Source of the DNA: Nitratireductor sp. GISD-1A_MAKvit
Lineage (GTDB): Bacteria > Pseudomonadota > Alphaproteobacteria > Rhizobiales > Rhizobiaceae
Reading direction: 5' to 3'
Length of the DNA stretch: 64,000 nucleotides
Assembly (NCBI RefSeq): GCF_040819555.1
Contig: NZ_CP161920.1
Coordinates: 695,501-759,500 of the forward strand
The translations under genes were made by a program, and so were the position numbers. This document shows, in pieces, positions 7,711 through 26,857 of the stretch; position 1 is the first letter of the stretch, and each line of letters starts with the position of its first letter. The notes below the pieces were generated by a model. That model had not been told where the DNA came from. It saw nothing but the letters and a program-made list of their open reading frames with translations, and made no database searches.

Positions 7711-8871
7711 TCAGACCTTCCGCAGGATGTCTTCGCCAGCCTCCTGAAGCGCGCTGCATGATGACAGGCCGGCGAGGTTGAGCGTGATCTCGACCTCCTT
7801 CGCCAGAAGCGCGATCAGATGCGCGACCCCTGCTTCACCCGCAGCCGCGACGGCCCAGGCAAATGGCCGCCCCATCAGCACGAAATCGGCACCCAGCGCC
7901 AGCGCCTTCACGATGTCGCTGCCACGCCGGAACCCGCTGTCCACCATGAGTGCGACTGTGGGGCCGAGTGCCTGGCGCACGGCGGCGATCTGGGAAACCG
8001 TGGAAAGCCCGTGGTCCAGCTGGCGCCCGCCGTGGTTGGACAAGACGATGCCATCGATGCCGGCATCACGCGCTCTTGCGGCGTCTTCGGGATCGCAAAT
8101 CCCCTTGACGAAGAGCTGCCCGTTCCAGTCTTCGCGCAGTTTTGCCACCGTGTCCCAGGTGAGGTTCTTGTCGAGCCTGCGCGAGAGATTTCCGGCCTGC
8201 GCCAGCGCGCCCTTTCCGAATTCGGGCCTCCCCTTAACCAGCTCCACTTCGGGGAAGCCGCCACGCAGAAGGTCGAATGACCATCCGGGGCGTTTTGCGA
8301 ATTGCCAGATAAGCCCGGGTGTCATCCGGTCCACGCTGCGAAACCCGTTTTTGACATCCCGCTCGCGGACGGAGGTGATCGCAGTGTCCACCGTCAGGAA
8401 GATGCGGTCCACCCCTTCAGCGCGGCAGGCTTCGAGATGGGCCGCATTCACCTCCGGATCCTCATCGAGGTAAAGCTGGAAATCGGGCACCGCGCCGGCG
8501 GCCAATCGGATGGTGCGCAGACCATTGATCGAGAAGGTCGACAGGACAAAAGGCACGCCCGCCTGCGCTGCCGCCCGTGCAACGGCGATGTCGCCATCAC
8601 GTCGATAAAGTCCCATGAAGCCGACGGGCCCGGGGCCGAAGGGCAGGGCGGAAGGGCGCCCCGCGACGGTCACCGAAAGATCGTTGGCTGGAGCGAGCGG
8701 AGCCAGCACCCTCTGCCGCAGCGCATAGGTGTCGAAATCCGACCGGTTTCGTCTCAGTGTCGTTTCAGAAAATGCTCCCCCGTCGATATAATCGGCGAAG
8801 ATGCGTGGCAGACGCCGGCGGGCGGCGGCGGCAAAACCCTCGACATTCTGATACCGACGGTCAAGGCTCAT
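7711..8871 (-). CDS. FMN-dependent 2-hydroxy-acid dehydrogenase (LldD/mandelate dehydrogenase family)
   Basis: TIM-barrel flavoenzyme that oxidises an L-2-hydroxy acid to the 2-oxo acid. The 386 aa fit the family. Seen: ADYIDGGA near residue 27, the FMN lysine in LFVKGI (K256), the catalytic histidine and substrate-binding arginine in SNHGGRQLD (H280, R283), and the flavin phosphate site DSGFRRGSDIVKALALGAD. Its ATG overlaps the stop of the kinase gene by four bases (ATGA). As last gene of an operon with a HutC-type operator it may oxidise imidazolelactate to imidazolepyruvate; lactate or another 2-hydroxy acid is equally possible from sequence alone. Confidence 0.88.
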   Translation of the reverse strand: MSLDRRYQNVEGFAAAARRRLPRIFADYIDGGAFSETTLRRNRSDFDTYALRQRVLAPLAPANDLSVTVAGRPSALPFGPGPVGFMGLYRRDGDIAVARAAAQAGVPFVLSTFSINGLRTIRLAAGAVPDFQLYLDEDPEVNAAHLEACRAEGVDRIFLTVDTAITSVRERDVKNGFRSVDRMTPGLIWQFAKRPGWSFDLLRGGFPEVELVKGRPEFGKGALAQAGNLSRRLDKNLTWDTVAKLREDWNGQLFVKGICDPEDAARARDAGIDGIVLSNHGGRQLDHGLSTVSQIAAVRQALGPTVALMVDSGFRRGSDIVKALALGADFVLMGRPFAWAVAAAGEAGVAHLIALLAKEVEITLNLAGLSSCSALQEAGEDILRKV

Positions 8872-10172
8872 TCGGGGCGGATCCTGTCGAAGAATTCGCT
8901 GAACATGTCCGCGCCCTCGACCGGGCGGGAGGCTGCCGAAAGCGCCACCGACAGGCCGATCGCGGAGGAGACCGGATTGTGTCGGTCGGCACCTTCGCCC
9001 GCGTTGAGGTTCATCACGAGCGTGGGCGAGAGGAAGAGGCCGGTGCGGATGATGTCTTCCCAGTCGTCCGGCAGCATGTTCCTGTCGCTCAGGTGGCGCA
9101 GCCAGGGGCGCCAGAACGTGTCTGCCTTGGCTTCGAGAAGCGCCTTTCTTGCCGGCGACAGGCGCCAGTCGGTTTCGAAATCGAGAATGCCATCTGCCAG
9201 CCGCACTTCCGCCCGATAGCGCTCGGCGGCCATTTCCGGATTGTAGAGCCAGAATGGGTGCGCAAAAATGTTGTGAAAGGTGGATTTCACCTCGGCCAGA
9301 AGCGCAGGCACCTTGTTTCCGGCAAAGGCGGGGTCGAAGAAGGCCAGCCGGTCACGCTCCTTCGAACGCACATACCAGACATTCGCATTGTGGGCGTCGC
9401 CATGGGCCACGATCCCGCCGGCCGAGGCGGTGTTGGCAGGTTCATAGCGCCGATGCGCATCGTCAAAGGCCTGGCGCAGCGTTGCCGCATGGGTAACACC
9501 GTTCACCCGTATCCCTGCGTCCGCCATGTCCTCCCAGCGCAGCGACACGCCATTGGGGAAATCAAAGCGTTTTCCCACGTAGAATTTGGCCAGCCGGCCT
9601 CCGGGATAGTGTCCACCCGGCAGATCGACAAGCCGTTCGTAGAACAGGCGGTGGATGGGTTCTGATGCCGCCTCGTCGGGGGTTACGGGGTGCAGCGTCT
9701 CGCAGGCGACCTTCAGGATATGCTTGTTCAGATCCGTCTCCGCCTGCCGCGCCCGCTCTATGGCGTTGGTGTCGGGCGTCTGGTCGAGCTCGAACAGCAC
9801 GTCGGAAAAGCGTGGGTCCGTGCGCCGGCGATACACCAGAAGCTGTTCGCCGGGCAGGGTGGACATGTGAACCGGCTGATCGACGGGCAGGCCGGCCCCC
9901 GACAGGATGTCGGCGCGGTAATATTCGCCCGTCATCTCTTCTTCACCCTCTTCCTGATGGAACTTGAAGAAGAAATCGTCTGTTCCCGACCGGAAGAAGC
10001 CGTTGAGCGAGTTGAGCGAATATTGATCCACATTGATGACGAGTTCCGCCACCGGAATGTCGAAGAGACCCGCGATGAAGGTTTCGAGCATCCCGGCCGC
10101 ACGGGCCGCGTCCTGCCGCGCCACGGCGCGGATTTCGGCGGTGCGCGACAGGGCGCGGGTCTCGGTGGTCAT
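8868..10172 (-). CDS. APH-fold phosphotransferase in the catabolic operon
   Basis: 434-aa protein with the kinase-like fold of aminoglycoside and choline phosphotransferases: possible ATP lysine in FFFKFH (K70), catalytic loop HGDAHNAN (257-264) and metal-binding aspartate in AFFDPAF (D280). A resistance role is unlikely: the gene sits between an alcohol dehydrogenase and a 2-hydroxy-acid dehydrogenase with ATGA overlaps on both sides, so it probably phosphorylates a small hydroxyl-bearing metabolite of the pathway. The ATG at 10172 has GGAG six bases upstream; a GTG ten codons earlier would lie inside a tandem duplication. Substrate unknown. Confidence 0.75.
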   Translation of the reverse strand: MTTETRALSRTAEIRAVARQDAARAAGMLETFIAGLFDIPVAELVINVDQYSLNSLNGFFRSGTDDFFFKFHQEEGEEEMTGEYYRADILSGAGLPVDQPVHMSTLPGEQLLVYRRRTDPRFSDVLFELDQTPDTNAIERARQAETDLNKHILKVACETLHPVTPDEAASEPIHRLFYERLVDLPGGHYPGGRLAKFYVGKRFDFPNGVSLRWEDMADAGIRVNGVTHAATLRQAFDDAHRRYEPANTASAGGIVAHGDAHNANVWYVRSKERDRLAFFDPAFAGNKVPALLAEVKSTFHNIFAHPFWLYNPEMAAERYRAEVRLADGILDFETDWRLSPARKALLEAKADTFWRPWLRHLSDRNMLPDDWEDIIRTGLFLSPTLVMNLNAGEGADRHNPVSSAIGLSVALSAASRPVEGADMFSEFFDRIRPE

Positions 10173-11182
10173 GTCGGTCTCCTGCAATCCGGTCTCCTGC
10201 AATCGATGAGTGTCTTGATCCCCGCGCTCTCTCCCGCAAGCAGCCGTTCGTATGCTGCCGGCACCTCGTTCAGAGGGATGGTCGCGGCGATGAATGGGTC
10301 GAGATGCGCTGCCAGTTCGGGCAGCATCGCGGCAATCTCTACGAGCTCGTCGCCGAAGGCATGACAGCCGATCAGCGCGATTTCGCGCTCGACCAGTTGC
10401 ACGGGATCTATGATTTCGGCTGCGCCTCCGATCCCCACCAGCCCGAGGCGACCGGCCCCCGCGATGCTTGCAAGGAGGCTTCGGATGACGTGGGGCGACC
10501 CGGTGGTGTCAATCGCGTGGCGATAGCGATGGTTTTCAAGCTCTTTGAGGCCTGTCACCGTCGCCCCGGTCACCCGTTCCACCAGATCGGTGCGCTCCCG
10601 GTTGCGGTCGACGATACGCACGGGGTGGCCTGCGCGGGATGCGAGCAGCGCGATGAACGCGCCAATCGGCCCGCACCCGGCAACGACGATTTCAGCGCCA
10701 TCGGGAACGGCCATGAGGTTCAGGGCGTGCAGCGCCACCGCAAGCGGCTCCGCCATGGCCAGGTGACGATCAGCCACGCCGTCCGGTGCCGCAATGACAT
10801 TGCGGGCGGGCAGGGTGACATGTTCGGCAAACCCGCCATCGATGCTCTCGCCGATAAACCCCAGCCGAGCGCATACCTGGCCAAATCCCTCGAGGCAGGC
10901 CGGGCAGTTTCCGCAGACGTGGCGGCTGTCAACGATCACCCGGTCGCCAATGGCGACATGGGTCACGTCCACACCCCGATGTGTCACCGTTCCGGTGAAC
11001 TCATGCCCGGCAATGGAGGGGGCGCGGGAAATCCACGCCCCGGTCCGGTAATTGTGGAGGTCCGAGCCGCAAATGCCCGCAAGCGATACCGCGAGTGTGA
11101 CCTCGTCGCGTTTGGGAGCAGGCGGGGCGGGCACGTCTTCGTGCCTCAGTTCCCCGACGCCGTGCAGCCGGACCGATTGCAT
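10169..11182 (-). CDS. Zinc-dependent medium-chain alcohol dehydrogenase
   Basis: 337-aa NAD(P)-dependent dehydrogenase of the threonine/sorbitol dehydrogenase branch. The catalytic zinc site is seen as CGSDLHNY and GHEF, the structural zinc lobe as CGNCPACLEGFGQVC, and the nucleotide fold as VVAGCGPIGAFIALL followed by the acidic strand end IVDRN. The ATG at 11182 overlaps the TGA of the histidinol-dehydrogenase homologue (TGATG); a GTG one codon earlier is possible. It probably oxidises a secondary alcohol in the same route. The C-terminus is extended by a 15-bp duplication (DCRRP twice). Confidence 0.87.
   Translation of the reverse strand: MQSVRLHGVGELRHEDVPAPPAPKRDEVTLAVSLAGICGSDLHNYRTGAWISRAPSIAGHEFTGTVTHRGVDVTHVAIGDRVIVDSRHVCGNCPACLEGFGQVCARLGFIGESIDGGFAEHVTLPARNVIAAPDGVADRHLAMAEPLAVALHALNLMAVPDGAEIVVAGCGPIGAFIALLASRAGHPVRIVDRNRERTDLVERVTGATVTGLKELENHRYRHAIDTTGSPHVIRSLLASIAGAGRLGLVGIGGAAEIIDPVQLVEREIALIGCHAFGDELVEIAAMLPELAAHLDPFIAATIPLNEVPAAYERLLAGESAGIKTLIDCRRPDCRRPT
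10175..10204. repeat. Two exact 15-bp tandem copies at the adh/kinase junction
   Basis: The unit GATTGCAGGAGACCG (minus strand) occurs twice without a gap. It encodes the DCRRP-DCRRP tail of the alcohol dehydrogenase and at the same time duplicates the GGAG ribosome site of the downstream kinase gene. Confidence 0.9.
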
Positions 11183-12510
11183 CACATGTCTTTCAGGTAT
11201 TCTAGGCGAAGGTCGCTGACAGCGATGGCGTGGGACGAAAAGCCTTCGTATTCGGCAAGCGTCCTGGCTGCCTGAGCCATCTCCGGATACCCCTTTTCGG
11301 TGACGTAACCGACCGAGCTGCGGCGGATGAAATCCGTAACCGACAGCGGCCCATAGGTGTTTGCGCCCCGGGAGGTCGGCAGCACCGCATTTGGTCCCAG
11401 CGCGAAATTGGCGATGGAAACGGGTGTATGGGTGCCGAGAAGAATCTCGGATGCCTCGGTGATCTCACCCAGATAATCGAACGGTTTGGTCGAGAGGATT
11501 TCGAGATGCTCTGGCGCGTATTCGTTCACGAAGGCGCAGGCATCGTCCATGTTCTGGGCGAGCACGATGCCGCCGGACCTGCCTGTCAGCACCGTGCGGG
11601 AGAACTCGACCCGCTGTTCGGTCATCCGGCCCCAGAGTTCGGGCAGGGTGGCAAGTGCCTCTTCCACCACCCGTTCCGAAGGCGTAACGAGCCAGGCCGA
11701 GCTGTCGGGGCCATGCTCGGCCTCGATCAGAAGATCCATCGCGGCGAGCCGGCCCGAAATGGTGTCATCGGCAAGGATCATGCCTTCGGAGGGGCCCGCC
11801 GGCAGACCGGGGTCGATGACGCCGGCCAGAAGCCGCTTCGCGGCCACAACCCAGGGGCTGCCCGGGCCAACGATCTTCTGCGCTTTCTTCACGGTTTCGG
11901 TGCCGAAGGCTGCCGCCGCCACTGCCTGTGCACCGCCGCATTTGTAGATCGTTTCAACGCCGGCAATGCGCGCTGCAACCAGCGTGGCGGCATCGACCTT
12001 TCCATCCGGTCCCGGCGGCGTGAAGATGGCGAGGTTGGGCACTTTTGCGACCACACCGGGCACCGAGGTCATCATGGTGACCGAAGGGAACGAGCCCTTG
12101 CCGCGCGGCACGTAAAGCGCCACCGAATTGATCGGGAGGTAGCGGTCGCCGGCAAAGGCACCGGGACGCACTTCCTTCAGCCACATGGGCTCTGGCGCCT
12201 GTTCTTCATGGAAGGTGCGGATGTTGCCGATGCCGAAGCGGATCGCCTCGATCACCTTTTCATCCACGGCCTTGAAGGCTTCGTCAAACTCGGCTTCGGA
12301 CACTTTGAGCGTTTCGGCGGTCAGAGGCGCCGCCTTGTCGAAATCGCGCCCGAAGCGGACGAGGGCTGCGTCACCCTCGGTCTTCACCGCATCGATGATG
12401 GGCTGCACCTTGTCCAGAAAGAAGGAGAGATCGGATTCGGACCGGCGGGTAAGACCGGCGCGTTCCGCTTTTCCAAGTCCAGCGAGTTTCTGGACGTTTA
12501 CTTCAGCCAT
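11182..12510 (-). CDS. Histidinol dehydrogenase homologue, catabolic paralogue
   Basis: 442-aa member of the HisD family, NAD-dependent enzymes that take a primary alcohol through the aldehyde to the acid. The catalytic pair E334-H335 (EYAPEHLE) and residues E422 and H427 match E. coli E326-H327, E414 and H419. Two metal-site positions differ: Q259 is E263 (IEAEHGPDS) and D360 is N368 (SIANFALG); H367 is A375. It lies between an ABC transporter and dehydrogenase genes, away from other biosynthetic his genes. Candidate substrates are histidinol or a similar imidazole alcohol; sulfopropanediol (as HpsN) is the known non-histidine precedent. The start has AGAGGA upstream. Confidence 0.85.
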   Translation of the reverse strand: MAEVNVQKLAGLGKAERAGLTRRSESDLSFFLDKVQPIIDAVKTEGDAALVRFGRDFDKAAPLTAETLKVSEAEFDEAFKAVDEKVIEAIRFGIGNIRTFHEEQAPEPMWLKEVRPGAFAGDRYLPINSVALYVPRGKGSFPSVTMMTSVPGVVAKVPNLAIFTPPGPDGKVDAATLVAARIAGVETIYKCGGAQAVAAAAFGTETVKKAQKIVGPGSPWVVAAKRLLAGVIDPGLPAGPSEGMILADDTISGRLAAMDLLIEAEHGPDSSAWLVTPSERVVEEALATLPELWGRMTEQRVEFSRTVLTGRSGGIVLAQNMDDACAFVNEYAPEHLEILSTKPFDYLGEITEASEILLGTHTPVSIANFALGPNAVLPTSRGANTYGPLSVTDFIRRSSVGYVTEKGYPEMAQAARTLAEYEGFSSHAIAVSDLRLEYLKDM

Positions 12511-12559
12511 AACGGATCCTCTCAGTCAGGTTGGCCGGCGGAACGAAGCCGCCAGAACT

Positions 12560-13358
12560 TCATTTTGATTTCAGAAAGATTTCGAGCCCCACCAGCCGGT
12601 CGAGCAGCCAGACCGCCAGCAGCGCGATGACGACGAAGACAGAGGAAATCGCGGCAAGGTCCGGTGTGATGATCGAACGGATGTTGTTGTAGATCTGGAC
12701 CGGCAGGGTGACCGTTCGGGCATCGGTCAGAAGCAGCGAGACGAGGAATTCCGTCATGGCCAGCACGAACATGAGCAGGCCGCCGGTAATGACGCCGGGC
12801 ATGACGCCGGGAAGCGTGACGAACCAGAAGGTTTCAAACCGGCCCCGCTCCGCAGCTTGCCGCCGCCAGCTCCAGATCTTTGTCCAGAGATGCTGCCGAA
12901 GACGACACCGACCAGATGATGAAGGGCAGGTTGATGACGGCCAGAGCCACCCCCACGGGCCAGAGGCTGCCAAGAACGCGCCATTCGCCGAAAACCAGCA
13001 TCATGCCGATGCCCGATCCGATCAGCGGGATGGTGAAGGGCAGGAGGAGGTAGATCTGGATCGCGTTGGAAAAGCGCATGCGAAAGCGCGACAGGGCAAG
13101 CCCTGCAAGCGTGCCCACCGGCACGGACACGATCAGACAGATGGTCGACACGATGAGCGAGCGGACAAAGGCCTGGCGCAGGTCCCGCGCCATGGCGATT
13201 TCCTCATACCATTTGAGCGAGAACCCCTTGGGTGGGAAGGCGATCATGTTTTCGGTCGTGACCGAGGCGCCGACCACGATGATCGTGGGAATGGACAGGA
13301 TCAGGATGCAGAACCAGACAATGCCCCAAAACAGGATGCGCTGCGAGGTGGCGGTCAT
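12560..13358 (-). pseudogene. ABC transporter permease, PotC type, frameshifted
   Basis: Second inner-membrane permease of the polyamine/opine-type transporter. The first part holds the N-terminal membrane segments up to LELAAASCGAG; the second continues one frame over with RFETFWFVTLPGVMPGV (the EAA loop that contacts the ATPase) and two further membrane segments. Removing one base of the CCCC at 12843-12846 gives a continuous 265-aa protein. ATGA overlap with the upstream permease gene. Probably a consensus error, because the rest of the operon is intact. Confidence 0.85.
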
Positions 13359-14320
13359 TTCCTGCCTCCCATCCCGAGGGTTCCCGCGCCGAAGGTCGCA
13401 ATCACGATGCCGACGAACACGGAGCCGAGCGCGACCAGAAGCAGGGCCAGCGCAGCACCGAGCCCCTGATCCGCCGTGCGGAAGAACTGGTCGTAAATTG
13501 CATTGGCGATGAAATCCTGCGAGCCGCCGCCCAGCATTGCCGGCATGGCGAAATCGGTCAGCGCGAGCGTACCGACCACCAGCCCCGCCCCGATCAGCCC
13601 GGGCTTGGCCATCGGAATCACCACATGGCGGAAGCTCTGAAACCAGTTTGCTCCGAGAGACGAAGCGGCTGTTTCCGTCTCACGCGGGATGGCCGTCAGG
13701 GCCGGCGCAAGCATGAGCACGGCGAATGGCAGCATGTATTGGACGAGCCCGAAAACAACCGCGGGGAAATTGAACAGGAGCCTGATCGGCTCGATCCCGA
13801 CCAGTCCGAGCGCATCGTTCACCGCGCCCGAGGTGCCAAGAACGATCAGAATGCCATAGGCGCGCACCACCTGACCGATGAAGAAGGGCAAGAACAGAAT
13901 GATGAGCAGCGTCTTGCGCACTGCCGCGCTGTGCGTGCGCACCATGATATAGGAATATGGCAGTGCCAGCGCGAGGGTAAACACCACCGTCAGGAGCGCG
14001 CCCAGCACCGAACGCCAGATGACCCGCCCATAGGTCGCGCTTTCAAAAACGGTGCCATAGTTTTCGAGCGTGTAGTTCTCGGAGGGCAGAAATGTTGCAC
14101 GGTCCAGTGTGTGGAAAGAACTCTCCGCCATCTGCACAAGCCCCAGCACGAGAAGCCCGACGAGAAGCAGGGCCGGTGTGATGAGTGCCCAGCCCGAATA
14201 GGGCGCCAGGCGCGACGGCCAGAACCTGTCCAGCGCCCCGTTGAGCAGATCCATGATCCGCCAACGCAGTGGGTATCTGAACGAAGTGCGGTCCTGGTCC
14301 TTGGATAGCGTTTCAGACAT
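13355..14320 (-). CDS. ABC transporter permease, PotB type
   Basis: 321-aa integral membrane protein of the polyamine/opine-type permease group. The first membrane segment is GWALITPALLLVGLLVLGLV after a cytoplasmic N-terminus; the EAA loop reads AASSLGANWFQSFRHVVIPMAKPGL. It pairs with the PotC-type permease, whose start codon overlaps its stop by four bases. Forms the channel of the importer encoded by this operon. Confidence 0.9.
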   Translation of the reverse strand: MSETLSKDQDRTSFRYPLRWRIMDLLNGALDRFWPSRLAPYSGWALITPALLLVGLLVLGLVQMAESSFHTLDRATFLPSENYTLENYGTVFESATYGRVIWRSVLGALLTVVFTLALALPYSYIMVRTHSAAVRKTLLIILFLPFFIGQVVRAYGILIVLGTSGAVNDALGLVGIEPIRLLFNFPAVVFGLVQYMLPFAVLMLAPALTAIPRETETAASSLGANWFQSFRHVVIPMAKPGLIGAGLVVGTLALTDFAMPAMLGGGSQDFIANAIYDQFFRTADQGLGAALALLLVALGSVFVGIVIATFGAGTLGMGGRK

Positions 14321-14360
14321 CTTGGCTTTCCGGGGGGAGCGGTAGAGGAGAGAAAAGGGA

Positions 14361-14433
14361 CGTGCCGCGCAGCTGGGCAGAGCGGCACGCCGCTTGAGTC
14401 ATTTGCCGGCGCGTTGAATAACGTCGCCGGCAA
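14361..14433 (-). promoter_or_regulatory. Two hairpins after the binding-protein gene
   Basis: In the 123-base gap between the binding-protein and permease genes are CGTGCCGC/GCGGCACG (14361-14368 with 14382-14389) and TTGCCGGCG/CGCCGGCAA (14403-14411 with 14425-14433). Without U tracts, they probably stabilise the upstream message so that more binding protein than permease is made, a common arrangement in ABC operons. Confidence 0.45.
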
Positions 14434-14443
14434 GTCGAAAACT

Positions 14444-15541
14444 CTAGCTCTGCATGATCTCCTTGAACTTGGCGAACCAGTCGCTTTCGTTCTGAACCTG
14501 CACCGCCGAAGAAATCCGGATGAGGTTTTCGAAGTCCTCGGGCTTGGTCGGATAGGACGGGTCACCTGCGAGCCCTTCTGGCGGGGTAAGCCCCGGCACG
14601 ACGCCGGGCAGACCCAGGCCATCGAGCCAGATCTGCTGGCTTTCGGTCGAAAGAGCGAGATTGATGTACTGCTTGGCCCAGTAGAGTTCGTTCTCCGGCA
14701 GACCCTTGGGGATCCACAGGCAGTCGGTGTCGAACTTGCAGCCCTCTTCCGGCACGGTCCAGGCGAGCTCAACGCCGTTTTTCTTGGCAGCGAGCGCGTT
14801 GGTGGAAATGGTGCAGGCGGCATCGATTTCGCCATTCTGGAACCAGGTGGTGAAGTCGGGATCCTCGCCCAGAAGCGGATTTTGCGCTTTCATCTCGCGC
14901 ACGAAATCCCAGCAGGGGTCCATCGCATCGGGAATACCGTCGAGCGACCCGCCACCGGCGACCTGCGCCGGGAAGTGGAAACCGATGCCGTCATTGTAGA
15001 GGGCAACGCGACCCTTGAATTTCGGATCGAGCAGATCGCGCCAGGATTTCGGTGCTCCATCGGGGAACGCTTCGGGCCGATAGGCGAGAACGTAGACATA
15101 GCCATAGGTGTTGACCATCGGGAAGCCGTCCAGGCCCACCGGCTTGGCGAGATCCGTGGTGTTGGCGAGATTGGGCAGGTCGGAAATGTCTTCGGTAACC
15201 CCACGAAGCGCCGATTTGGTCGCGTTGGTGGTGGTGTCCCAGTTGATGTGGATCGGCGGAATACGGTTCTGGGCGACAGCGGCCCACACCTTGGGCTGGA
15301 TCTCGTTGTCTTCGGTGAGGTCGTGACGAACGGCAATGCCGGTCATTTCCGTGAACCGGTCGGACACGCCTTTCTTCAGGGATTCGACCCATTCGCCGCC
15401 CCAGGCGCGGACGATGATCTCCGAAGGCTTCTCCGGCTCCTGCGCGAAAACGCGCGTGGTCGGGAGCGAAGCGAGCAGCGCGGCGCTGCCCGTGGCTGCG
15501 CCGGCCCGAAGGACGCCACGGCGTGTGAAGGTCTTGGTCAT
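14444..15541 (-). CDS. ABC transporter substrate-binding protein, PotD type
   Basis: 365-aa periplasmic solute-binding protein of the extracellular family 1/6 group used for polyamines, opines and other small cations. The N-terminus has a twin-arginine-like signal (TRRGVLRAGAATG ... TTRVFA) followed by the mature start EIIVRAWGGEWVESLKKGV. GAGGAG precedes the ATG. Its gene lies 38 bases after the ATPase gene. The ligand cannot be read from sequence; operon context suggests a histidine-related amine or acid. Confidence 0.88.
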   Translation of the reverse strand: MTKTFTRRGVLRAGAATGSAALLASLPTTRVFAQEPEKPSEIIVRAWGGEWVESLKKGVSDRFTEMTGIAVRHDLTEDNEIQPKVWAAVAQNRIPPIHINWDTTTNATKSALRGVTEDISDLPNLANTTDLAKPVGLDGFPMVNTYGYVYVLAYRPEAFPDGAPKSWRDLLDPKFKGRVALYNDGIGFHFPAQVAGGGSLDGIPDAMDPCWDFVREMKAQNPLLGEDPDFTTWFQNGEIDAACTISTNALAAKKNGVELAWTVPEEGCKFDTDCLWIPKGLPENELYWAKQYINLALSTESQQIWLDGLGLPGVVPGLTPPEGLAGDPSYPTKPEDFENLIRISSAVQVQNESDWFAKFKEIMQS

Positions 15542-15579
15542 AGGTACTCTCCTCTTTTGCGACTCAGTTCGTGTTGTTG

Positions 15580-16710: not shown

Positions 16711-16763
16711 CTTGATCCCTGATGTCGGTGCGGCTGGGAGAAGCTAAGCACCTTCTGGAAAAT

Positions 16764-16775
16764 AAGTATATACTT
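16764..16775. promoter_or_regulatory. HutC-type operator before the transporter operon
   Basis: AAGTATATACTT is a perfect 12-bp palindrome and contains GT-A-TA-T-AC, matching the GT-N-TA-N-AC consensus reported for HutC-subfamily GntR repressors. It lies upstream of the PotA-type gene and would block transcription of the whole operon. Confidence 0.6.
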
Positions 16776-16817
16776 TTCGGCAGAGTGGGGCGCCTCGGTG
16801 CCGAAATTTTCATCCGG

Positions 16818-17594: not shown

Positions 17595-17615
17595 GAGGTC
17601 CCCACTCCTCTTGAC

Positions 17616-17627
17616 ATGTCTATACAT
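17616..17627. promoter_or_regulatory. HutC-type operator between the SDR and aminotransferase genes
   Basis: ATGTCTATACAT: the GTCTATAC core (17618-17625) fits GT-N-TA-N-AC and is flanked by AT on both sides. It lies 23 bases from the SDR start and about 40 from the aminotransferase start, so one site can control both divergent genes. A TTGACA is at 17611-17616. Confidence 0.65.
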
Positions 17628-17666
17628 ATGTAGGCTGTTAATGACCGTGAGTCAACGGAGTTTCCC

Positions 17667-18782: not shown

Positions 18783-18814
18783 AACCGGTTGGTCTGAAGC
18801 CCGACCGGCGCTGA

Positions 18815-20152
18815 TCAGACAAGAACACGCCGCAGCACCTCGCCAAAGCGGTGCTGCACCGCGTCGCGACGAACGTGCCGCCCGTGCTGAACCACATGCT
18901 CGCCTGCCGCCCAGACATGATCGACATCGACGTCTCGGCCAAAGACCCAGCGGTCGATCAGGTTATCGCCGTTTGGCGCCAGGTCGAGCGGATCGGAGAG
19001 TGACACGAGATCAGCGGGAGCATCGACGGCGATTTCGGGGGAGGGTGCATCCAGCGCCTGTGCGCCCCCGGCCAGTGCGGCATCCAAGAGCCGCCGCCCG
19101 GTTGATCCGCCTTCCTCCGCGAGAACGTTCCGCGCCCGCTTTGTGAGGCGTTGCCCGTATTCCAGTACCCGCAGCTCCTCTGCCACGTCGATGCGCACAT
19201 TGGAATCCGTACCGATGGCGATGCGCCCGCCCGCGTTCAGAAAATCCGGCGCCGGGAAAAGACCGTCGCCCAGATTTGCCTCGGTGACGGGGCAGAGACC
19301 CGCCACCGCGCCGCAGGCAGCAAGTCGCGCGGTTTCCCTCTCGGTCAGATGTGTCGCGTGGATGAGGCACCAGTCCGCACCCACATCGAAATTGTCGAGC
19401 AGCCATTCGACCGGGCGCTGGCCATGGTGATCGAGGCAGTCCTCGACTTCCTTCACCTGTTCGGAAATGTGGATGTGCAGCCTGCGTCCCGGCAGGGCGG
19501 CGGTCAGCGCGGTCAGGTCTTCGTGGCTCGCGGCACGCAGCGAGTGCGGTGCAAAGCCGACGCGGTCCTGCGGTCGGGTGATCCGTTTGTCACAGCGCTC
19601 GATCAGCGCGATGAAGGCATCGATATCATGGAGGAAACGGCGCTGGCCCTCGCCGGCAGGCTTCGGGCCGAAACCGCCATGGGCGTAGAACACGGGCAAG
19701 TGGGTGAGTGCAATTCCGGTTGTCTCGGCAGCGTCGAAAATCCGCTCTGAAAGCTCGGCGGGGTTGTCATAAGGTGCGCCGGAGGGATCGTGGTGCAGGT
19801 AGTGGAACTCACCCACACGGGTAAAGCCCGCTTCCAGCATCTCGACATAGGCCATCTCTGCCAGCGCTGAAACATCTTCCGGGCTGACCGAAAGGGCGAA
19901 GCGGTACATCATTTCGCGCCAGGTCCAGAAGCTCTCCTGTCCCGCGCCGCGCATTTCGGTGAGGCCGGAATGGCCCCGCTGAAAGGCATGGCTGTGGACG
20001 TTGGGCATGCCCGGTATCAGTGCGTCCACCCTTGTATCGTCCGGATGCGGGTGTGTTTGCGCCACAATCTCGGTGATGCGTCCTGCCGACCCGGAGACCC
20101 GGACGTTTTCTGCCCATCCCGATGGCAGCAGCGCAATTCTTGCGAAGATCAT
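18815..20152 (-). CDS. hutF: Formimidoylglutamate deiminase
   Basis: Amidohydrolase that converts N-formimino-L-glutamate to N-formyl-L-glutamate plus ammonia, the fourth step of the five-step histidine pathway. The 445 aa match HutF. The metal site NVHSHAFQRGHSG is near residue 51, with IHISEQ, HATHLT and GTDSNVRID further on. The start is the ATG at 20152 (GTG one codon earlier), preceded by AAGGGG. Encoded divergently from the hutI operon, with a HutC-type operator between. Confidence 0.95.
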   Translation of the reverse strand: MIFARIALLPSGWAENVRVSGSAGRITEIVAQTHPHPDDTRVDALIPGMPNVHSHAFQRGHSGLTEMRGAGQESFWTWREMMYRFALSVSPEDVSALAEMAYVEMLEAGFTRVGEFHYLHHDPSGAPYDNPAELSERIFDAAETTGIALTHLPVFYAHGGFGPKPAGEGQRRFLHDIDAFIALIERCDKRITRPQDRVGFAPHSLRAASHEDLTALTAALPGRRLHIHISEQVKEVEDCLDHHGQRPVEWLLDNFDVGADWCLIHATHLTERETARLAACGAVAGLCPVTEANLGDGLFPAPDFLNAGGRIAIGTDSNVRIDVAEELRVLEYGQRLTKRARNVLAEEGGSTGRRLLDAALAGGAQALDAPSPEIAVDAPADLVSLSDPLDLAPNGDNLIDRWVFGRDVDVDHVWAAGEHVVQHGRHVRRDAVQHRFGEVLRRVLV

Positions 20153-20241
20153 CACTTGCCCCTTTTGATTGCTTCCGCATCACCTCCCGGCCTCAGGGGC
20201 GAGGAAGGTGAAGAATCATCTTTCAATCCACTTGCCATTAT

Positions 20242-20249
20242 GTCTATAC
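20242..20249. promoter_or_regulatory. HutC-type operator between hutF and hutI
   Basis: GTCTATAC, identical to the cores at 17618 and 26850, inside an A+T-rich stretch (TATGTCTATACTTATATAA) between the two divergent hut transcription units. It probably controls both hutF and hutIHGUD. Confidence 0.65.
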
Positions 20250-20292
20250 TTATATAACGACGAGCGCAAAGCCGAAATTCCGAGAGGACACC

Positions 20293-21478
20293 ATGTCGAA
20301 CACGACCATATGGGCCAATGCCAGATTGGCCAACGGAAGCAGCGAGCCGGTGGACATCGTGGTCGCCGACACTCGGATCGTGTCGGTCGGGGAGAATGCC
20401 GATCGCTCGGGTGCGCGCGTGGTCGATTGCGAAGGGCGGCTGGTAACCCCCGGACTCATCGACTGTCACACACATATCGTGCATGGCGGCGACCGGACGC
20501 GCGAGTTCGAGATGCGGCTTGAAGGCGCCAGCTATCAGGAGATCGCCCGGGCGGGCGGGGGCATCGTTTCGTCGATGCGCGACACCAGGGCGCTGGATGC
20601 CGACGGGCTGGTCGAGGCTTCACTTGCCCGTGTCGATGCGCTGCTATCCGAGGGTGTGACAACCATTGAAGTCAAATCCGGCTACGGCCTCGCGATCGAA
20701 GCGGAAATGAACATGTTGCGCGCGGCTCGCGCACTGGAGAGCATTCGCCCGCTGCGCATCCGCACCACGTGGCTTGCCGCTCATGCCATGCCGCCGGATT
20801 TCGATGGTAGCAAGGCCGATTATATCCGCGACGTGGCGATTGCCGGTCTCCGGCAGGGCCCATGCAGAAGGGCTCGTCGATGCCGTCGATGGCTTCTGCG
20901 AATCGATTGCCTTTTCGGCTGATGAGATAAGGCCCCTGTTTGAAACCGCGCGCGCGCTCGGGCTTCCGGTGAAGCTGCACACCGAACAGCTGACGCGTTC
21001 CGGCGGCACACGATTAGCGGCCGATTTCGGGGCGCTGTCGGTCGATCATTTCGAGTATGCGGAAGCTGAAGAGGTTGCTGCAATCGCTGCATCGGGAACG
21101 GTCGCGGTGCTCTTACCCGGTGCCTTTTACATGCTCAACGAAACCCGCAAGCCGCCCGTCGCAGCGCTCCGGGAGGCCGGGGTGCCGATGGCGCTTGCCA
21201 CCGACTGCAACCCTGGCACCTCGCCTGTTTCGTCGCTGCTCACCACCATGAACATGGGCGCGGTTCTGTTCAAAATGACGGTGGATGAATGTCTCGCAGG
21301 TGTCACCACCAACGCTGCCCGGGCCCTCGGTCTTCAGCACGAAGTGGGCACTCTTGTCCCGGGGGCTTCTGCCGATCTTGCGATCTGGGACGCCGAAACG
21401 CCGGCCCAACTGGTCGGCCGCATCGGGCTCAATCCTCTCCATCAACGCGTATTCAAAGGAACCGTCTCCCATGGCTGA
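20293..21478 (+). pseudogene. hutI: Imidazolonepropionase, frameshifted
   Basis: Metal-dependent amidohydrolase that opens 4-imidazolone-5-propionate to formiminoglutamate. The first part carries the metal motif DCHTHIVHGG and [11 protein letters not shown]; the second, one frame over, continues [22 protein letters not shown] and the metal aspartate in TDCNPGTSP. Removing one base from GGGCCC at 20856-20861 restores a 394-aa protein of normal length. The 3' end overlaps hutH by eight bases. The rest of the pathway is intact, so a consensus error is more likely than real loss. Confidence 0.92.
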
Positions 21479-23000
21479 AACGCTGATTCCCGGTCAGGTG
21501 TCTCTGCGCACACTTGCAGATGTCTACTGGAACGCGACCGATGTGGTTCTTTGTGAAAGCGCGCTGCCGGGCATCAAGGGCGCCGCCGAGCGCATTGCCA
21601 GCGTGGCGGAAGGAAACGCGCCGGTCTATGGCGTCAATACCGGTTTTGGAAAGCTCGCTTCCATCCGCATCGAGGCGGCGGAAGTTGCCACCCTGCAGCG
21701 CAATCTCATCCTCAGCCACTGTTGTGGGGTTGGCGCGCCGCTCGCTCCCGAAATCGTTCGGCTGATCATGGTGCTGAAGCTCATGTCGCTCGGGCGGGGG
21801 GCGTCAGGGGTCCGCGTCGAGATCGTGGCTTTGATGCAGTCGATGCTCAAGGCGGATGTGCTGCCGCTCATCCCCGAAAAAGGGTCGGTTGGTGCCTCGG
21901 GCGATCTTGCGCCTCTTGCACACATGACCGCCGCCATGATCGGCGAGGGTGAGGCTTGGCATCAGGGTGAACGTTTGCCCGCGCGCGAAGCACTCTCGCG
22001 TGCAGGCCTTTCCCCGGTGGAACTGTCGGCCAAGGAGGGACTTGCGCTCATCAACGGAACCCAGGTTTCCACGGCTCTGGCGCTGGCAGGCCTCTTCCGG
22101 GCGGAGCGCGCCCTGCAGGCATCCCTTGTGTCCGGGGCGTTCTCCACCGACGCCGCCATGGGATCGACAGCGCCCTTCACGGAGGAAATCCACACGCTTC
22201 GCGGCCATCGCGGCCAGATTGAGGTCGCTGCAACGCTGCGCAGGCTCCTTGAAGGCAGCCAGATCCGCAACAGCCATGTGGATGATGACGAACGCGTGCA
22301 GGACCCCTACTGCCTGCGCTGCCACCCGCAGGTTTCGGGTGCCTGTCTCGATCTTCTGCGCCAGGTGGCTGCAACGCTCGAGATCGAAGCCAATGCGGCG
22401 ACCGACAACCCGCTTGTTCTTTCGGACGGCGCAGTGGTCTCGGGAGGCAACTTCCATGCCGAACCGGTGGCCTTTGCCGCCGATCAGATCGCGCTTGCCG
22501 TTGCCGAAATCGGGGCCATCGCCCAGCGGCGCATCGCCATGCTGGTGGATCCGGCGTTGAGCTTTGGGCTGCCTGCATTCCTCTCTCCCAGACCCGGCCT
22601 CAACTCTGGTCTGATGATTGCGGAGGTGACTTCGGCTGCGCTGATGAGTGAAAACAAGCAGCTCGCGCATCCCGCATCGGTGGATTCCACGCCCACATCG
22701 GCCAATCAGGAAGATCATGTCTCCATGGCGTGTCACGGGGCGCGGCGCCTGTTGCAGATGACCCAGAACCTCTTCCACATCATCGGCATCGAGGCTCTGA
22801 CCGGAGCGCAGGGCGTCGAGCTTCGTGCTCCGCTGAAAACCTCGGAGCAACTCGTCGCTGCAATGGCCCGTTTTCGGCAAGATGTGCCCGCAATCGGCGA
22901 CGACCGGTATATGGCGGATGATCTGGAAAGGGCCGCCGAACTCGTTCATTCCGGCGCTCTGACGGCGCCAGTGCAAAAGCTGCTTCCGGAGGTGTTCTGA
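21471..23000 (+). CDS. hutH: Histidine ammonia-lyase
   Basis: First step of histidine breakdown: L-histidine to urocanate and ammonia. 509 aa, the normal length. The self-forming MIO cofactor comes from the ASG triad in [15 protein letters not shown]. The substrate-binding YGVNTGFG is near residue 53. The ATG at 21471 follows AAAGGA and overlaps the hutI stop; its own TGA overlaps the hutG ATG by one base. Confidence 0.97.
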
Positions 23001-23815
23001 TGGATCCGGTTCTTGTTTCACGGGGCGAAAGCCCACTGGTTCTGGGGCTTCCGCACACCGGCACCCATGTGCCTGACGACATTGCAGACAAGCTGAACGA
23101 AGAAGGTCGGCTGCTGCGCGACACGGACTGGCATATCGACAAGCTGTATGAGGGGCTGGTGCCTGGTGCCACCACGGTTCGCGCCACGTTTCATCGCTAC
23201 GTGATCGATCCGAACCGTGATCCTTCCGGCGTGTCGCTTTATCCCGGCCAGTCGACCACCGGGCTGGTCCCGCTCTCCAATTTCGACAATGTGCCGATCT
23301 GGAAGACGGGAGCAGAGCCCGACGAGGCGGAGATCACCCGCCGGAAAAATGCTTTTCACGCGCCCTACCACGCTGCCCTGATGGCCGAGCTTGAGCGTGT
23401 CCGTGCGATCCACGGCTATGCCGTTCTTTATGACTGCCACTCGATCCGGTCGGTCATTCCCTGGCTGTTTGAAGGCACACTCCCCGATTTCAACATCGGC
23501 ACCGACATGGGCCGCACCTGCGCACCGGAGATCGAGCAGGCGGCCATGGAAGCGACTGCCGCAACCGGCCGCACCCATGTGCTCAACGGCCGTTTCCGGG
23601 GAGGCTGGACGACCCGACACTATGGACGACCGGAGGAAGGGTTCCACGCGGTTCAGATGGAGCTTGCGCAGGTCTCGCATCTGGAAAACGAGGAACCGCC
23701 CTTTGCCCTCCATGACGAAAAGACCACCCGCCTTCGTGGCGAGCTGCGGCATATCCTGAACGAAATTCTGCGCGCTGCGGCAAGCACCGCCACGCGTGCC
23801 GACAAGCCCTGTTGA
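23000..23815 (+). CDS. hutG: N-formylglutamate deformylase
   Basis: Last step of the five-step route: N-formylglutamate to glutamate and formate. 271 aa, a member of the N-formylglutamate amidohydrolase family, with [24 protein letters not shown] and the metal-site motif [11 protein letters not shown]. It pairs functionally with HutF; together they replace the one-step HutG formiminoglutamase of enteric bacteria. Confidence 0.95.
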
Positions 23816-23828
23816 AGAGGACGATCCG

Positions 23829-25526
23829 ATGACCAATCCCCGTCACAACCAGCGCGATGTTTTCCCGCCCACCGGAACCGAACTGAACGCGAAGAGCTGG
23901 CTGACCGAAGCGCCGCTCAGGATGCTGATGAACAATCTGCATCCCGACGTGGCCGAAAACCCGCACGAACTGGTTGTCTATGGCGGCATCGGCCGTGCGG
24001 CCCGGACCTGGGACGATTTCGATGCCATCGTGGCGTCGCTGAAGGATCTCGAAGCCGACGAGACGCTCATTGTTCAGTCGGGCAAGCCCATCGCCATCAT
24101 CCGCACCCACGCGGATGCGCCGCGCGTCCTGATCGCCAATTCGAACCTCGTTCCCGAATGGGCCAACTGGCAGCATTTCAACGAGCTCGATAAGAAGGGC
24201 CTGATGATGTACGGCCAGATGACCGCTGGCTCGTGGATCTACATCGGTGCGCAGGGCATCGTTCAGGGCACCTACGAGACCTTCGCCGAAGCCGGGCGCC
24301 AGCATTATGATGGCGATCTCACCGGCAAATGGATCCTGACCGGTGGTCTTGGCGGGATGGGCGGCGCACAGCCGCTTGCTGCGGTGATGGCCGGTGCCTG
24401 CTGTCTTGCCGTGGAATGCGATGAGACCCGCGCAGACTTCCGCATCCGCACCCGGTACTGCGACGAGAAGACCGACAGTCTGGATGAGGCGCTGGCGATG
24501 ATCGGCCGGTGGACCGAGGCAGGCGAGGCGAAATCCGTGGCGCTGATCGGCAATGCCGCCGAAGTGTTCCCGGAGATCCTGCGCCGTGTGCAGGCGGGTG
24601 AGCCGGTTCCCAATGGCCGGCCCGACATCGTAACCGACCAGACCTCGGCGCACGATCCCTATCACGGCTACCTGCCCAGGGGCTGGACCGTGGCCGAATG
24701 GCGAGCACGTCAGGAGAGCGACCCCGAGGCGGTGAACAGGGCTGCCCGCGCTTCCATGAAAGATCATGTCGAGGCGATGGTGGGCTTCTGGGAGGCAGGT
24801 ATCCCGACGCTGGATTATGGCAACAACATCCGCCAGATGGCGATGGAAGAGGGCATGGAGAACGCCTTCGCTTTCCCGGGGTTCGTTCCTGCCTATATTC
24901 GCCCGCTGTTCTGCCGTGGCATTGGCCCGTTCCGCTGGGCGGCACTTTCGGGCGACCCGGAAGACATCTACAGGACCGACCAGGCGATGAAGGAGCTGTT
25001 CCCCGAAAACGAGCACCTGCACCGCTGGCTCGACATGGCGCGTGAGCGCATTGCCTTTCAGGGGCTGCCGGCGCGCATCTGCTGGATCGGGCTGGGCGAT
25101 CGCCACCGCGCGGGCCTGAAATTCAACGAAATGGTAGCGAATGGCGAACTCAAGGCGCCTGTCGTCATCGGGCGGGACCATCTCGATTCCGGTTCGGTCG
25201 CTTCGCCCAACCGCGAGACAGAGGCGATGCGGGACGGGTCCGACGCGGTGTCCGACTGGCCGCTGCTCAATGCGCTGGTCAACACGGCATCGGGGGCCAC
25301 ATGGGTGTCGCTGCACCATGGTGGCGGCGTCGGCATGGGCTTTTCGCAGCATGCGGGCGTGGTGATCTGCGCCGACGGCACACCGGAAGCCGCCAAAAGA
25401 CTGGAGCGGGTTCTGTGGAACGACCCCGCCTCGGGCGTCTGGCGCCACGCCGATGCCGGCTATCCCGAAGCGCTGGAGTGCGCCCGGCAACATGGCCTGC
25501 GCCTGCCGCGCATTCTGGGCGCATGA
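23829..25526 (+). CDS. hutU: Urocanate hydratase
   Basis: NAD-containing enzyme that turns urocanate into imidazolonepropionate. 565 aa, the usual length. Seen: the glycine-rich NAD region [16 protein letters not shown], the catalytic-cysteine region [19 protein letters not shown] and the C-terminal [15 protein letters not shown]. The ATG at 23829 follows GAAGAGGACG; the frame is open upstream but would overlap hutG. Confidence 0.97.
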
Positions 25527-25527
25527 C

Positions 25528-26079
25528 ATGAAAGGTGCGGTCCACCGGGGGGCGGAGCGACGTTTTGCCCCCTGGAAGAACGGCGGCGGCGAAACGGCCG
25601 AAATCCTGTGCTCGCCGGAAGGGGCGGGCTACGACGATTTCGACTGGAGGATCAGCACTGCGCGGGTCGGCCAGTCCGGCCCGTTCTCAAGCTTCCACGG
25701 GGTTCATCGATCGCTCACCGTGATCGAGGGGGGCGCCATGCGGCTGACCTTCGATGCTGCCCCGCCGCTGATGGTCGGACCTGAAACCGGTCCGGTTTGT
25801 TTTCCCGGTGATGTCGCCTGTCATGCAGAGTTGATCGGCCCTGCGCTGCTTGATCTCAATGTCATGGTGCGCGCGCCTTTCGGCGTCCGTGTCGTGGCTG
25901 CGGATACGGGCGTGGCGCCACTGGGCGGAGCCGTCGAACGCTTTGTCTTTGCCCGTGATGCGCTGCCCGCTCTGGGGCTCGAACGGCATGATCTTCAGCA
26001 GGTCCCGCCTGAGGAAAACGTGCCACCGCTTGGCGGTGCACTTGTCATCGACATTACCAGACAAGCGCGCGGGAGCTGA
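25528..26079 (+). CDS. hutD: HutD family protein
   Basis: 183-aa cupin-like protein found in many hut operons; proposed to limit excessive hut expression, mechanism unknown. The family signature FAPWKNGGGETAEI is at residues 13-26, followed by DFDWRISTARVGQSGPFSSF and the LTVIEGGAMRL segment. The ATG lies one base after the hutU stop, so the two are tightly linked. Converges with hutC. Confidence 0.93.
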   Translation: MKGAVHRGAERRFAPWKNGGGETAEILCSPEGAGYDDFDWRISTARVGQSGPFSSFHGVHRSLTVIEGGAMRLTFDAAPPLMVGPETGPVCFPGDVACHAELIGPALLDLNVMVRAPFGVRVVAADTGVAPLGGAVERFVFARDALPALGLERHDLQQVPPEENVPPLGGALVIDITRQARGS

Positions 26080-26093
26080 CCGCATGCAGCACT

Positions 26094-26822
26094 TCAGCTG
26101 CGCGCTCCGAACTCGGCGGTCAGCTGATGCGCTTCTCCGGGATAGAGAAGCCGGGCATAGGTGATCCAGTCGTCATTGATCTGGGTTTTGCGCAGGATCT
26201 CCAGGCAGGCTGCACCGACGGGCAGGCGCAGCTGATGGGCATCCCGGCCCGAAATATTGATCGCCCGCACCGAGTGGCGCACGTTCGACCACGGCATCGA
26301 ATGAAGCAGCCATGCACCTGGCAGTTCGTGTGAAAAATCCACCGTCGCGGCGTCCGGCACGGCGGTCAGGTTGATGGCCCGGGTTTCCAGGCAGAAGGGC
26401 TCGTCATCGGCGTAATGCACGCCCTGCAGGTAGATCGCCATGTCCCGGAGCGCGGCCTGCCTCACACCCAGAACGCGCAGGTCGTTCTGACCCAGCGTGC
26501 GGGTTTCCTGTGACAGGAGCTTCCAGTCATAGCGCCGGCCGAGCGCAGCCACTTCGTCGGCAATGTTGTTGATCTCCATCACGGCCGACTGCGCCCGCGC
26601 TTTTGCGACAAACGTGCCCCGGCGCTTGCGCCGGGTTATGAAGCCATTTGCCGAAAGCTCGGTCAGCACCTTGTTCATGGTCATCCGCGAAACGCCGTAC
26701 TGCGCGGCGAGTTCGGTTTCCTTGTCCAGTTGATGACCCGGCGGCCACTCGCCATCGACGATCTTGGAGCGAATCTCCTCCAGAATCCGGGTATGCAGTG
26801 ATTCGGACATGGACGGTGGCAC
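26094..26822 (-). CDS. hutC: GntR-family histidine utilisation repressor
   Basis: About 242-aa regulator: N-terminal GntR winged helix (LHTRILEEIRSKIVDGEWPPGHQLDKETELAAQYGVSRMTMNKVLTEL in two stretches) and a C-terminal UTRA ligand domain ending YARLLYPGEAHQLTAEF. HutC senses urocanate in studied species. The GTG at 26822 has GAGG six bases upstream; the ATG at 26810 is an alternative without a good ribosome site. A GTCTATAC operator 28 bases upstream suggests autoregulation. Confidence 0.94.
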   Translation of the reverse strand: MPPSMSESLHTRILEEIRSKIVDGEWPPGHQLDKETELAAQYGVSRMTMNKVLTELSANGFITRRKRRGTFVAKARAQSAVMEINNIADEVAALGRRYDWKLLSQETRTLGQNDLRVLGVRQAALRDMAIYLQGVHYADDEPFCLETRAINLTAVPDAATVDFSHELPGAWLLHSMPWSNVRHSVRAINISGRDAHQLRLPVGAACLEILRKTQINDDWITYARLLYPGEAHQLTAEFGARS

Positions 26823-26849
26823 CGCTAACCTCAGGAAAGCCTTGGATTC

Positions 26850-26857
26850 GTCTATAC
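26850..26857. promoter_or_regulatory. HutC-type operator upstream of hutC
   Basis: GTCTATAC followed by AT, the same core as the sites at 17618 and 20242. It lies 28 bases before the probable hutC start and fits autoregulation. Confidence 0.6.

Follow-up and report, generated by a model that had tools for sequence, protein, structure and literature searches.

What does a bacterium use a solute importer and a set of dehydrogenases for, when their genes lie directly beside its histidine utilization (hut) genes and appear to share their control? This question is raised by a stretch of DNA from Nitratireductor sp. GISD-1A_MAKvit (G000:C2:695501-759500; 64 kb in full length, referred to here as the window) in a 4.1 Mb genome of two contigs. 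Between positions 7711 and 26924, the window carries, in order, genes for a flavin mononucleotide (FMN) dehydrogenase, a kinase, a Zn-dependent alcohol dehydrogenase (Zn-ADH), a homologue of the histidinol dehydrogenase HisD, four ATP-binding cassette (ABC) transporter components and a short-chain dehydrogenase/reductase (SDR), then a divergent HisC-like aminotransferase gene and hutF-I-H-G-U-D-C. We give an even chance to the proposal that this segment is a laterally mobile, HutC-repressed scavenging island, which would import an imidazolyl relative of histidine and convert it to histidine for the hut route. The strongest new results are a HisD clade with swapped zinc ligands, the apparent displacement of canonical HisD by that clade, and a mobile block in which both operators and gene order are conserved. 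Gene identities were taken from NCBIfam and Pfam profile searches of the open reading frames (ORFs) of the window:

7711..8871, minus strand: FMN-dependent 2-hydroxy-acid dehydrogenase, LldD superfamily (PF01070, 378.9 bits)
8868..10202, minus strand: small-molecule kinase of predicted APH/choline-kinase fold (predicted model; no Pfam match)
10169..11185, minus strand: Zn-dependent medium-chain alcohol dehydrogenase (PF08240/PF00107)
11182..12510, minus strand: HisD-like four-electron dehydrogenase, clade 3 (TIGR00069, 419.1 bits; tree; residues)
12563..13358, minus strand: ABC permease 2, PotC type, split by a frameshift near 12843 (ORF 12834-13358; two-frame match to an intact relative)
13355..14320, minus strand: ABC permease 1, PotB type (PF00528; 51-86% identity in related cassettes)
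14444..15541, minus strand: solute-binding protein, SBP_bac_8, PotD/opine-binder fold (PF13416)
15580..16710, minus strand: ABC ATPase, PotA type (TIGR01187, 325.6 bits, below the cut-off of 355.6)
16818..17594 (longest ORF to 17627), minus strand: SDR family oxidoreductase (PF00106; 41% identity to HpsO of C. pinatubonensis)
17667..18782, plus strand: HisC-like aminotransferase (TIGR01141, 289.6 bits against a cut-off of 276.55)
18815..20155, minus strand: hutF, formimidoylglutamate deiminase (TIGR02022, 601.2 bits)
20293..21478, plus strand: hutI, imidazolonepropionase, split by a frameshift near 20855 (TIGR01224 on both pieces; two-frame match to an intact relative)
21476..23000, plus strand: hutH, histidine ammonia-lyase (TIGR01225, 703.3 bits)
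23000..23815, plus strand: hutG, N-formylglutamate deformylase (TIGR02017, 366.4 bits)
23796..25526, plus strand: hutU, urocanate hydratase (TIGR01228, 932 bits)
25453..26079, plus strand: hutD (PF05962, 126.5 bits)
26094..26810 (longest ORF to 26924), minus strand: hutC repressor (TIGR02018, 261.1 bits against 220, from residue 44)

These assignments confirm the gene set that the original prediction had placed directly beside hutF-I-H-G-U-D-C, the kinase being recognized by the fold of its predicted model. The kinase matches no Pfam or NCBIfam model at E 0.001; its predicted structure (mean predicted local distance difference test score, pLDDT, 88.7) matches PsiK and methylthioribose, choline and homoserine kinases, and the protein has both this fold and the HxDxxxxN motif of the APH/choline-kinase superfamily. 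The FMN enzyme scores below both curated NCBIfam L-lactate dehydrogenase cut-offs (296.8 against 376 and 267.4 against 550 bits) and is a member of the LldD superfamily, not a curated LldD, while the Zn-ADH reaches no NCBIfam cut-off among the matches listed. An own-genome search finds two more HisC-like matches elsewhere in G000, each at 35% identity. The hut enzyme set is complete (HutH, HutU, HutI, HutF and HutG), with hutI frameshifted in the assembly; hutH is shorter than its longest ORF, starting near 21476, as the curated matches begin at residues 66-69 of that ORF. For hutC the likely start is residue 39 of the longest ORF, with relatives aligning mostly from residues 32-44 and one from 25.

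The transporter had been described as a polyamine-type importer. Its components do fall into Pot-type ABC families, but all curated Pot models are missed (PotA, 325.6 against 355.6 bits; PotB, 140.5 against 348; PotD, 22.9 against 582; PotC, 65.7 against 326, scored on the truncated permease 2 ORF), and on these missed cut-offs we reject its identification as a polyamine importer. The binding protein shares 61-92% identity with 18 relatives. The best Foldseek matches of its model, which is of moderate quality (pLDDT 75.4), are AgtB, AttC, MotA and 4i1d; the fold matches span opine-, polyamine- and gamma-aminobutyrate-binding proteins, and the fold does not tell the ligand.

The HisD-like enzyme passes the curated HisD model TIGR00069 (419.1 bits against a cut-off of 243.8). 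A tree of 64 proteins separates nine rows of canonical HisD and an HpsN-like clade of 8 rows (support 100/99) from a third clade, of 47 rows (support 100/100), to which the island enzyme belongs. To our knowledge, and within the literature searches made here, this third clade has not been described. In CpHpsN, Gln248 and Asp352 are zinc ligands, and a D352A mutant is reported to be inactive (PMC11382572). Every clade-3 row (47/47) has Glu at the first of these positions and Asn at the second, whereas Gln and Asp are found in 17/17 of the other rows (9/9 canonical, 8/8 HpsN-like). In the island enzyme the replacements are Glu263 and Asn368. Like canonical HisD, with which it shares the fold family and the TIGR00069 cut-off, it keeps the catalytic Glu/His pair (E334/H335) and two zinc-binding His residues (H266, H427), all four of which are kept in 64/64 tree rows. 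Another position, which we take to be His367 in E. coli HisD numbering, holds Ala in 26/26 cassette rows; the remaining rows of clade 3 have Ala, Asn, Cys or His there. By its predicted metal site, with two zinc ligands changed, the island protein is not a canonical HisD. The homology originally claimed is supported, and the clade very likely retains histidinol oxidation, as the following comparison suggests. A further HisD-fold group near HpsN (L056 in G009, L067 in G002) has GGNYPL or GGKFPM in place of the HpsN motif.

A canonical Rhizobiaceae HisD query finds no match above 41% identity in 10 Nitratireductor genomes (two of them 86% complete, eight at least 90%). At the expected locus, the order is the same in 10/10 of these genomes, with genes that we take to be murA, DUF2948 and a low-molecular-weight phosphatase arranged as murA, DUF2948, UPF0262 (named by family search), phosphatase; hisD is missing between DUF2948 and UPF0262 in all ten, and in the one other genus compared (L026) it sits exactly between these two genes. 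The histidine-pathway gene hisB is present in 10/10. What all ten genomes have in common is a clade-3 HisD-family gene, which in G000 lies at G000:C2:3750561-3751853 (L002), where its open frame runs together with an upstream GNAT-like ORF. This gene very likely replaces canonical hisD in Nitratireductor. Several other genera likewise have no HisD-family match outside clade 3: of the 27 other genomes with clade-3 genes, 10 carry a canonical copy at 62-80% identity, and in 10/27 the search at 1e-30 finds one HisD-family protein alone, a member of clade 3. Because a clade-3 protein is the sole HisD-family match in several genomes and hisB is kept, members of this clade probably make histidine from histidinol. 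Eight tree rows from single-HisD genomes and five Nitratireductor rows are scattered in clade 3, including its base; of the Nitratireductor genomes represented, G000 carries the island copy as well, and G002 carries an HpsN-like protein. The simplest reading of this distribution is that histidinol oxidation is ancestral to clade 3 and that the cassette enzyme was recruited from within it.

Operators tie the cassette to hut. The motif GTNTANAC, which we take to be the HutC operator consensus as in the original prediction, has four exact matches in the 64-kb window, all at island promoters:

16766..16773: HutC-type operator GTATATAC, upstream of the ABC-to-FMN operon (exact match; in 11/15 cassettes)
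17618..17625: HutC-type operator GTCTATAC, SDR/HisC-like divergent promoter (exact match; in 16/18 cassettes)
20242..20249: HutC-type operator GTCTATAC, between hutF and hutI (exact match; also at hutF/hutI of L041, L042 and L048)
26850..26857: HutC-type operator GTCTATAC, just upstream of the likely hutC start (exact match)

The sites at 17618 and 26850 lie inside the longest SDR and hutC ORFs, upstream of the likelier starts (an ATG at SDR residue 12; hutC residue 39). The earlier claim of an operator at each transcription unit stands. The count alone is weak, since shuffled versions of the window hold 1.32 sites on average and reach four in 7/100 shuffles. It is the conserved placement across cassettes, not the count, that makes HutC-type control convincing. 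Operators were counted at 23 loci (18 of the core lineage and five distant; L108, L109 and L110 stand outside the count). Within the core lineage, whose loci include close relatives and are hence not independent, the site lies upstream of SDR in 16/18 cassettes and upstream of the ATPase gene in 11/15 that have a Pot ATPase, against a chance of about 0.5% per 250-base stretch at the shuffle rate; the two Paracoccus onubensis loci lack both sites, and L043 and L046 lack the one at the ATPase gene. Outside the count, GTNTANAC sites surround the start of the FMN gene in Klebsiella (L108), two lie between the GntR gene and the cassette in Pantoea (L109), and one precedes the first operon gene in L110. 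HutC-type co-regulation of the island is supported by these placements.

The island also has close counterparts elsewhere. A HisD-like protein at least 71% identical to that of the island occurs in 8/60 genomes (the host's own and relatives), and a scan with the kinase gave nine named loci, in Pseudohoeflea, N. aquibiodomus, Citreicella, Celeribacter, Enemella, two Paracoccus onubensis, Acidimangrovimonas and a Hoeflea metagenome-assembled genome (MAG). At 1e-90, 111 plasmid records match, most of them from Sinorhizobium (52) and Rhizobium (37), and the cassette alone is also found on plasmids, including S. meliloti pSymA. The block hutC-D-U-G-H-I/hutF/HisC-like/SDR-ABC-HisD-ADH is contiguous and in the same order in the window and five other genomes from two orders (Pseudohoeflea L042, Citreicella L189 and L034, Celeribacter L190, an Enemella record L191 and the Hoeflea MAG L192). 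The island HutU shares 90-92% identity with its counterparts in Citreicella, Celeribacter, Pseudohoeflea and the Enemella record, and 85% with that of the Hoeflea MAG; given this high identity across the block genomes, the hut block and the cassette have probably spread together between orders. In N. aquibiodomus, hutF-I-H lies beside the cassette and hutU on another contig, and the genome has two hutU copies, at 92% and 83% identity to that of the island, which suggests that the island hut genes travel with the cassette. The Enemella record (L036/L191) is titled Enemella evansiae TN21-6, an actinobacterium; its cassette and hut genes closely match alphaproteobacterial ones, and it may represent contamination. 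The window's HutH (21476-23000), for its part, is only 44-48% identical to HutH of four islands (L189-L192) that are well conserved in other respects (hutU 89-92%), as if hutH had been exchanged.

Association with hut extends beyond these blocks. All 15 examined genomes that carry the cassette whole or in part have hutU, and a clade-3 HisD gene directly follows hutU in G048 (L048) and lies about 2 kb from it in G386 (L121). In a class-wide sample of 385 genomes, the kinase was found in 10 (E 1e-15) and hutU in 96 (E 1e-150); hutU is present in 8/10 kinase-positive and 88/375 kinase-negative genomes (Fisher p 3e-4), or, by genus, in 4/6 against 64/271 (p 0.03).

A known counterpart is on the symbiotic plasmid of S. 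meliloti, where the cluster from SMa0387 (hisC3) to SMa0398 (hisD2), together with SMa0402 (GntR/HutC), holds the same gene set as the island; the HisD match of strain 1021 is 71.8% identical to the island protein. In strain M162 (L106) the order is hisC-SDR-ABC-hisD-ADH-hutC-kinase-FMN, with operators at the SDR and ATPase genes. Unlike the island, the pSymA cluster lacks hut enzyme genes across the 29 kb retrieved and has its own distant HutC paralogue (29% identity); in a quick tree, the cassette regulators of S. meliloti, R. ruizarguesonis, G012 and G020 form a distant HutC lineage at 29-30% identity. In an S. meliloti tolC mutant, hisC3 (-11.4), hisD2 (-10.6), SMa0391 (-15.6), SMa0392 (-8.3/-23.5), SMa0394 (-10.5), SMa0396 (-10.1) and the GntR gene SMa0402 (-8.4) are reported to fall together with hutU (-10.3), hutG (-11.5) and hutH (-7.7), and the transporter is referred to as of unknown function (PMC2912261). 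Elsewhere SMa0392 mRNA is given as a target of the AbcR small RNAs (PMC8844928), and in a study of PhaR, SMa0391 is listed as PotA and a motif of PhaR type is placed near hisD2 (PMC12542648). The word 'histidinol' is absent from the main text of a Proteobacteria-wide HutC reconstruction (PMC5343134). Our literature searches on the use of histidinol or imidazolelactate and on hut-linked hisD showed nothing on this cluster among the papers listed, the older subscription literature being outside their reach. Two published hisD observations are set aside: the fitness-tested hisD of Azospirillum brasilense (PMC5764234) was dropped as a candidate member (one Azospirillum match, of 12 records, is 36% identical), and the essentiality of S. 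meliloti hisD without pSymA/B, for which the authors suggest lost transport (PMC5929573), is not used here.

How might such a cassette feed the hut pathway? HutC-type co-regulation, a mobile unit shared with hut and a HisD homologue together make an imidazole relative the best guess for the imported compound. In the scheme that we propose, the Pot-type importer would take up an imidazolyl C3 compound, which could be an amino alcohol (L-histidinol being the first candidate), a diol or imidazolelactate. Clade-3 HisD would oxidize the terminal CH2OH to a carboxylate, with the adjacent NH2 or OH anchoring the substrate to the metal, so that histidinol would give histidine directly and the diol imidazolelactate. 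The FMN dehydrogenase could then convert L-imidazolelactate to imidazolepyruvate, which the HisC-like enzyme would aminate to histidine, and the SDR and Zn-ADH may interconvert or epimerize the C2 alcohol, as is thought for HpsO and HpsP on sulfopropanediol. Histidine would enter HutH-U-I-F-G, and urocanate, the HutC inducer, would presumably derepress the whole set. The label 'reverse histidine biosynthesis' attached to the island earlier is wrong, histidinol to histidine being the last forward step of that pathway. Histidinol is said to be used by Arthrobacter and imidazolyllactate by Pseudomonas testosteroni; imidazole glycerol and imidazole acetol occur naturally.

Several observations weigh against this scheme. 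The kinase has no place in it, and the substrate of the HisD-like enzyme could differ from histidinol because two zinc ligands are changed. The two Paracoccus onubensis cassettes have neither operator, and at the distant loci L112, L114, L115, L117 and L119 (g88, g92 and G074) the SDR site is found in 0/5 and the ATPase site in 1/3. The authors of the tolC study ascribe the drop in S. meliloti to lowered NtrC (PMC2912261). G143 and G258, with genomes of about 2 Mb, carry HisD-like and kinase genes without hutU, the pair lying near genes of the pyridoxal phosphate (PLP) lyase family and an amidotransferase gene. The HisD-kinase-SDR core occurs without hut in the fetched regions of genera g88 and g92 and of Klebsiella and Pantoea plasmids, although all sampled g88 and g92 genomes carry hutU elsewhere. 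Such cores standing apart from hut are the chief finding against the view that the cassette serves imidazoles alone, which they weaken, and part of the island machinery may act on other substrates. They also raise a less likely alternative, that the cassette breaks down an amino alcohol or diol that is not an imidazole, with HutC-type control and proximity to hut being secondary (urocanate might, for instance, signal nitrogen-rich exudate). Consistent with it, the core stands apart from hut in distant lineages, partly with another transporter (an NMT1/THI5-type binding protein in L108, L111 and L112); its neighbours in L122 and L125, both from genomes without hutU, are PLP-dependent lyase-family and glutamine-amidotransferase-like proteins; and on a Shinella sp. 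PSBB067 plasmid (L110, 11986-13329) a clade-3 HisD at 52% identity lies beside N,N-dimethylformamidase-like and gamma-glutamyltransferase genes, neighbours that hint at an amino-alcohol substrate other than histidinol. Yet a Pacificitalea plasmid cassette (L107), whose 18.9 kb of fetched sequence includes no hut enzyme gene, keeps the operators and a HutC that groups in the quick tree with HutC proteins of hut-linked islands; the two Pantoea GTNTANAC sites, the enrichment of hutU in kinase-positive genomes and the whole hut-plus-cassette blocks common to different orders likewise speak against a merely secondary link to hut.

We consider it improbable that the island is a plain histidine-uptake operon, its dehydrogenases and aminotransferase being redundant paralogues of biosynthetic enzymes that matter little to metabolism. 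The island does lack another histidine transporter gene, HutC regulons often include histidine importers, such as the HisXYZ system newly predicted in Rhizobiales, and in Colwellia and Idiomarina, two gammaproteobacteria, the his operon is itself a predicted HutC target (PMC5343134). Some loci, however, swap the transporter for an unrelated type while HisD, kinase and SDR stay, which makes the enzymes the constant part of the cassette, and the HisD-like protein is about as conserved across cassettes as the binding protein. A sulfonate pathway built on the sulfopropanediol dehydrogenase HpsN is suggested by the trio of HisD-like, SDR and Zn-ADH genes, which recurs in the C. pinatubonensis hps cluster, but it is very improbable: the G-R-Y-A/S-H motif of HpsN with its sulfonate-binding His (His126) is absent, the island protein having GKGSF in its place, the protein lies outside the HpsN-like clade, and no sulfolactate lyase appears among the island ORFs, for which no separate search was made. 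On motif and tree we reject the HpsN reading. The import of a histidine relative for hut, as first proposed, is supported in part, by co-regulation, by the mobile hut unit and by the HisD homologue; cores that lie away from hut may act on other substrates.

With these alternatives weighed, the scavenging of an imidazolyl compound can be set beside two known systems. Relative to a canonical HutC-run hut locus, the island has the same hutF-I-H-G-U-D-C genes and operators, with an additional nine-gene import and oxidation module and a HisC-like gene under the same operators. With the hps cluster for 2,3-dihydroxypropane-1-sulfonate (HpsN/HpsO/HpsP), it shares HisD-fold four-electron alcohol oxidation together with an SDR and a Zn-ADH, whereas HpsN has the sulfonate His motif and other zinc ligands, and the island adds the kinase, the FMN dehydrogenase, the aminotransferase and hut control. 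The SDR and Zn-ADH are rejected as HpsO and HpsP orthologues (41% and 29% identity, the Zn-ADH of the C. pinatubonensis hps record being taken as HpsP by inference), and the likeness is one of analogy at most. As a fuller version of the proposal, we tentatively suggest a so far undescribed mobile pathway for the catabolism of imidazolyl C3 alcohols, parallel to the hps route, that is built on a clade-3 HisD with the Gln-to-Glu/Asp-to-Asn swap, includes a kinase without a Pfam model and draws on a clade that has displaced canonical HisD from histidine biosynthesis in Nitratireductor. If true, this would explain what a gene cluster of a model rhizobium's symbiotic plasmid does, extend the textbook hut pathway upstream of histidine and put a name to a HisD clade whose metal site is unlike those of CpHpsN and the four solved HisD sequences aligned. 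Clade 3 would also explain how a genus without canonical hisD could make histidine, where annotation tools would call a normal hisD.

The edges of the island give few further clues to its arrival. At the right edge lies one feature:

26976..27052, minus strand: tRNA-Arg (CCT)

Transfer RNA genes are common integration targets, and this one adjoins the island, but no exact repeat of at least 14 bases of 26941-27052 and no attachment-type repeat occurs elsewhere in the 64-kb window, and integration at tRNA-Arg (CCT) is rejected on that ground. A foreign base composition is likewise rejected, the GC fraction being 0.62-0.63 in island and flanks alike. The relatives compared carry intact permease 2 and hutI genes, which in the window are frameshifted at 12843 and 20855. 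The flanking genes for a DUF4139 protein and an M20-family amidohydrolase (5526-7647; 27130-28294) each appear as two overlapping ORFs as well, and because these too look split, the frameshifts are no less likely to be sequencing errors than signs of decay.

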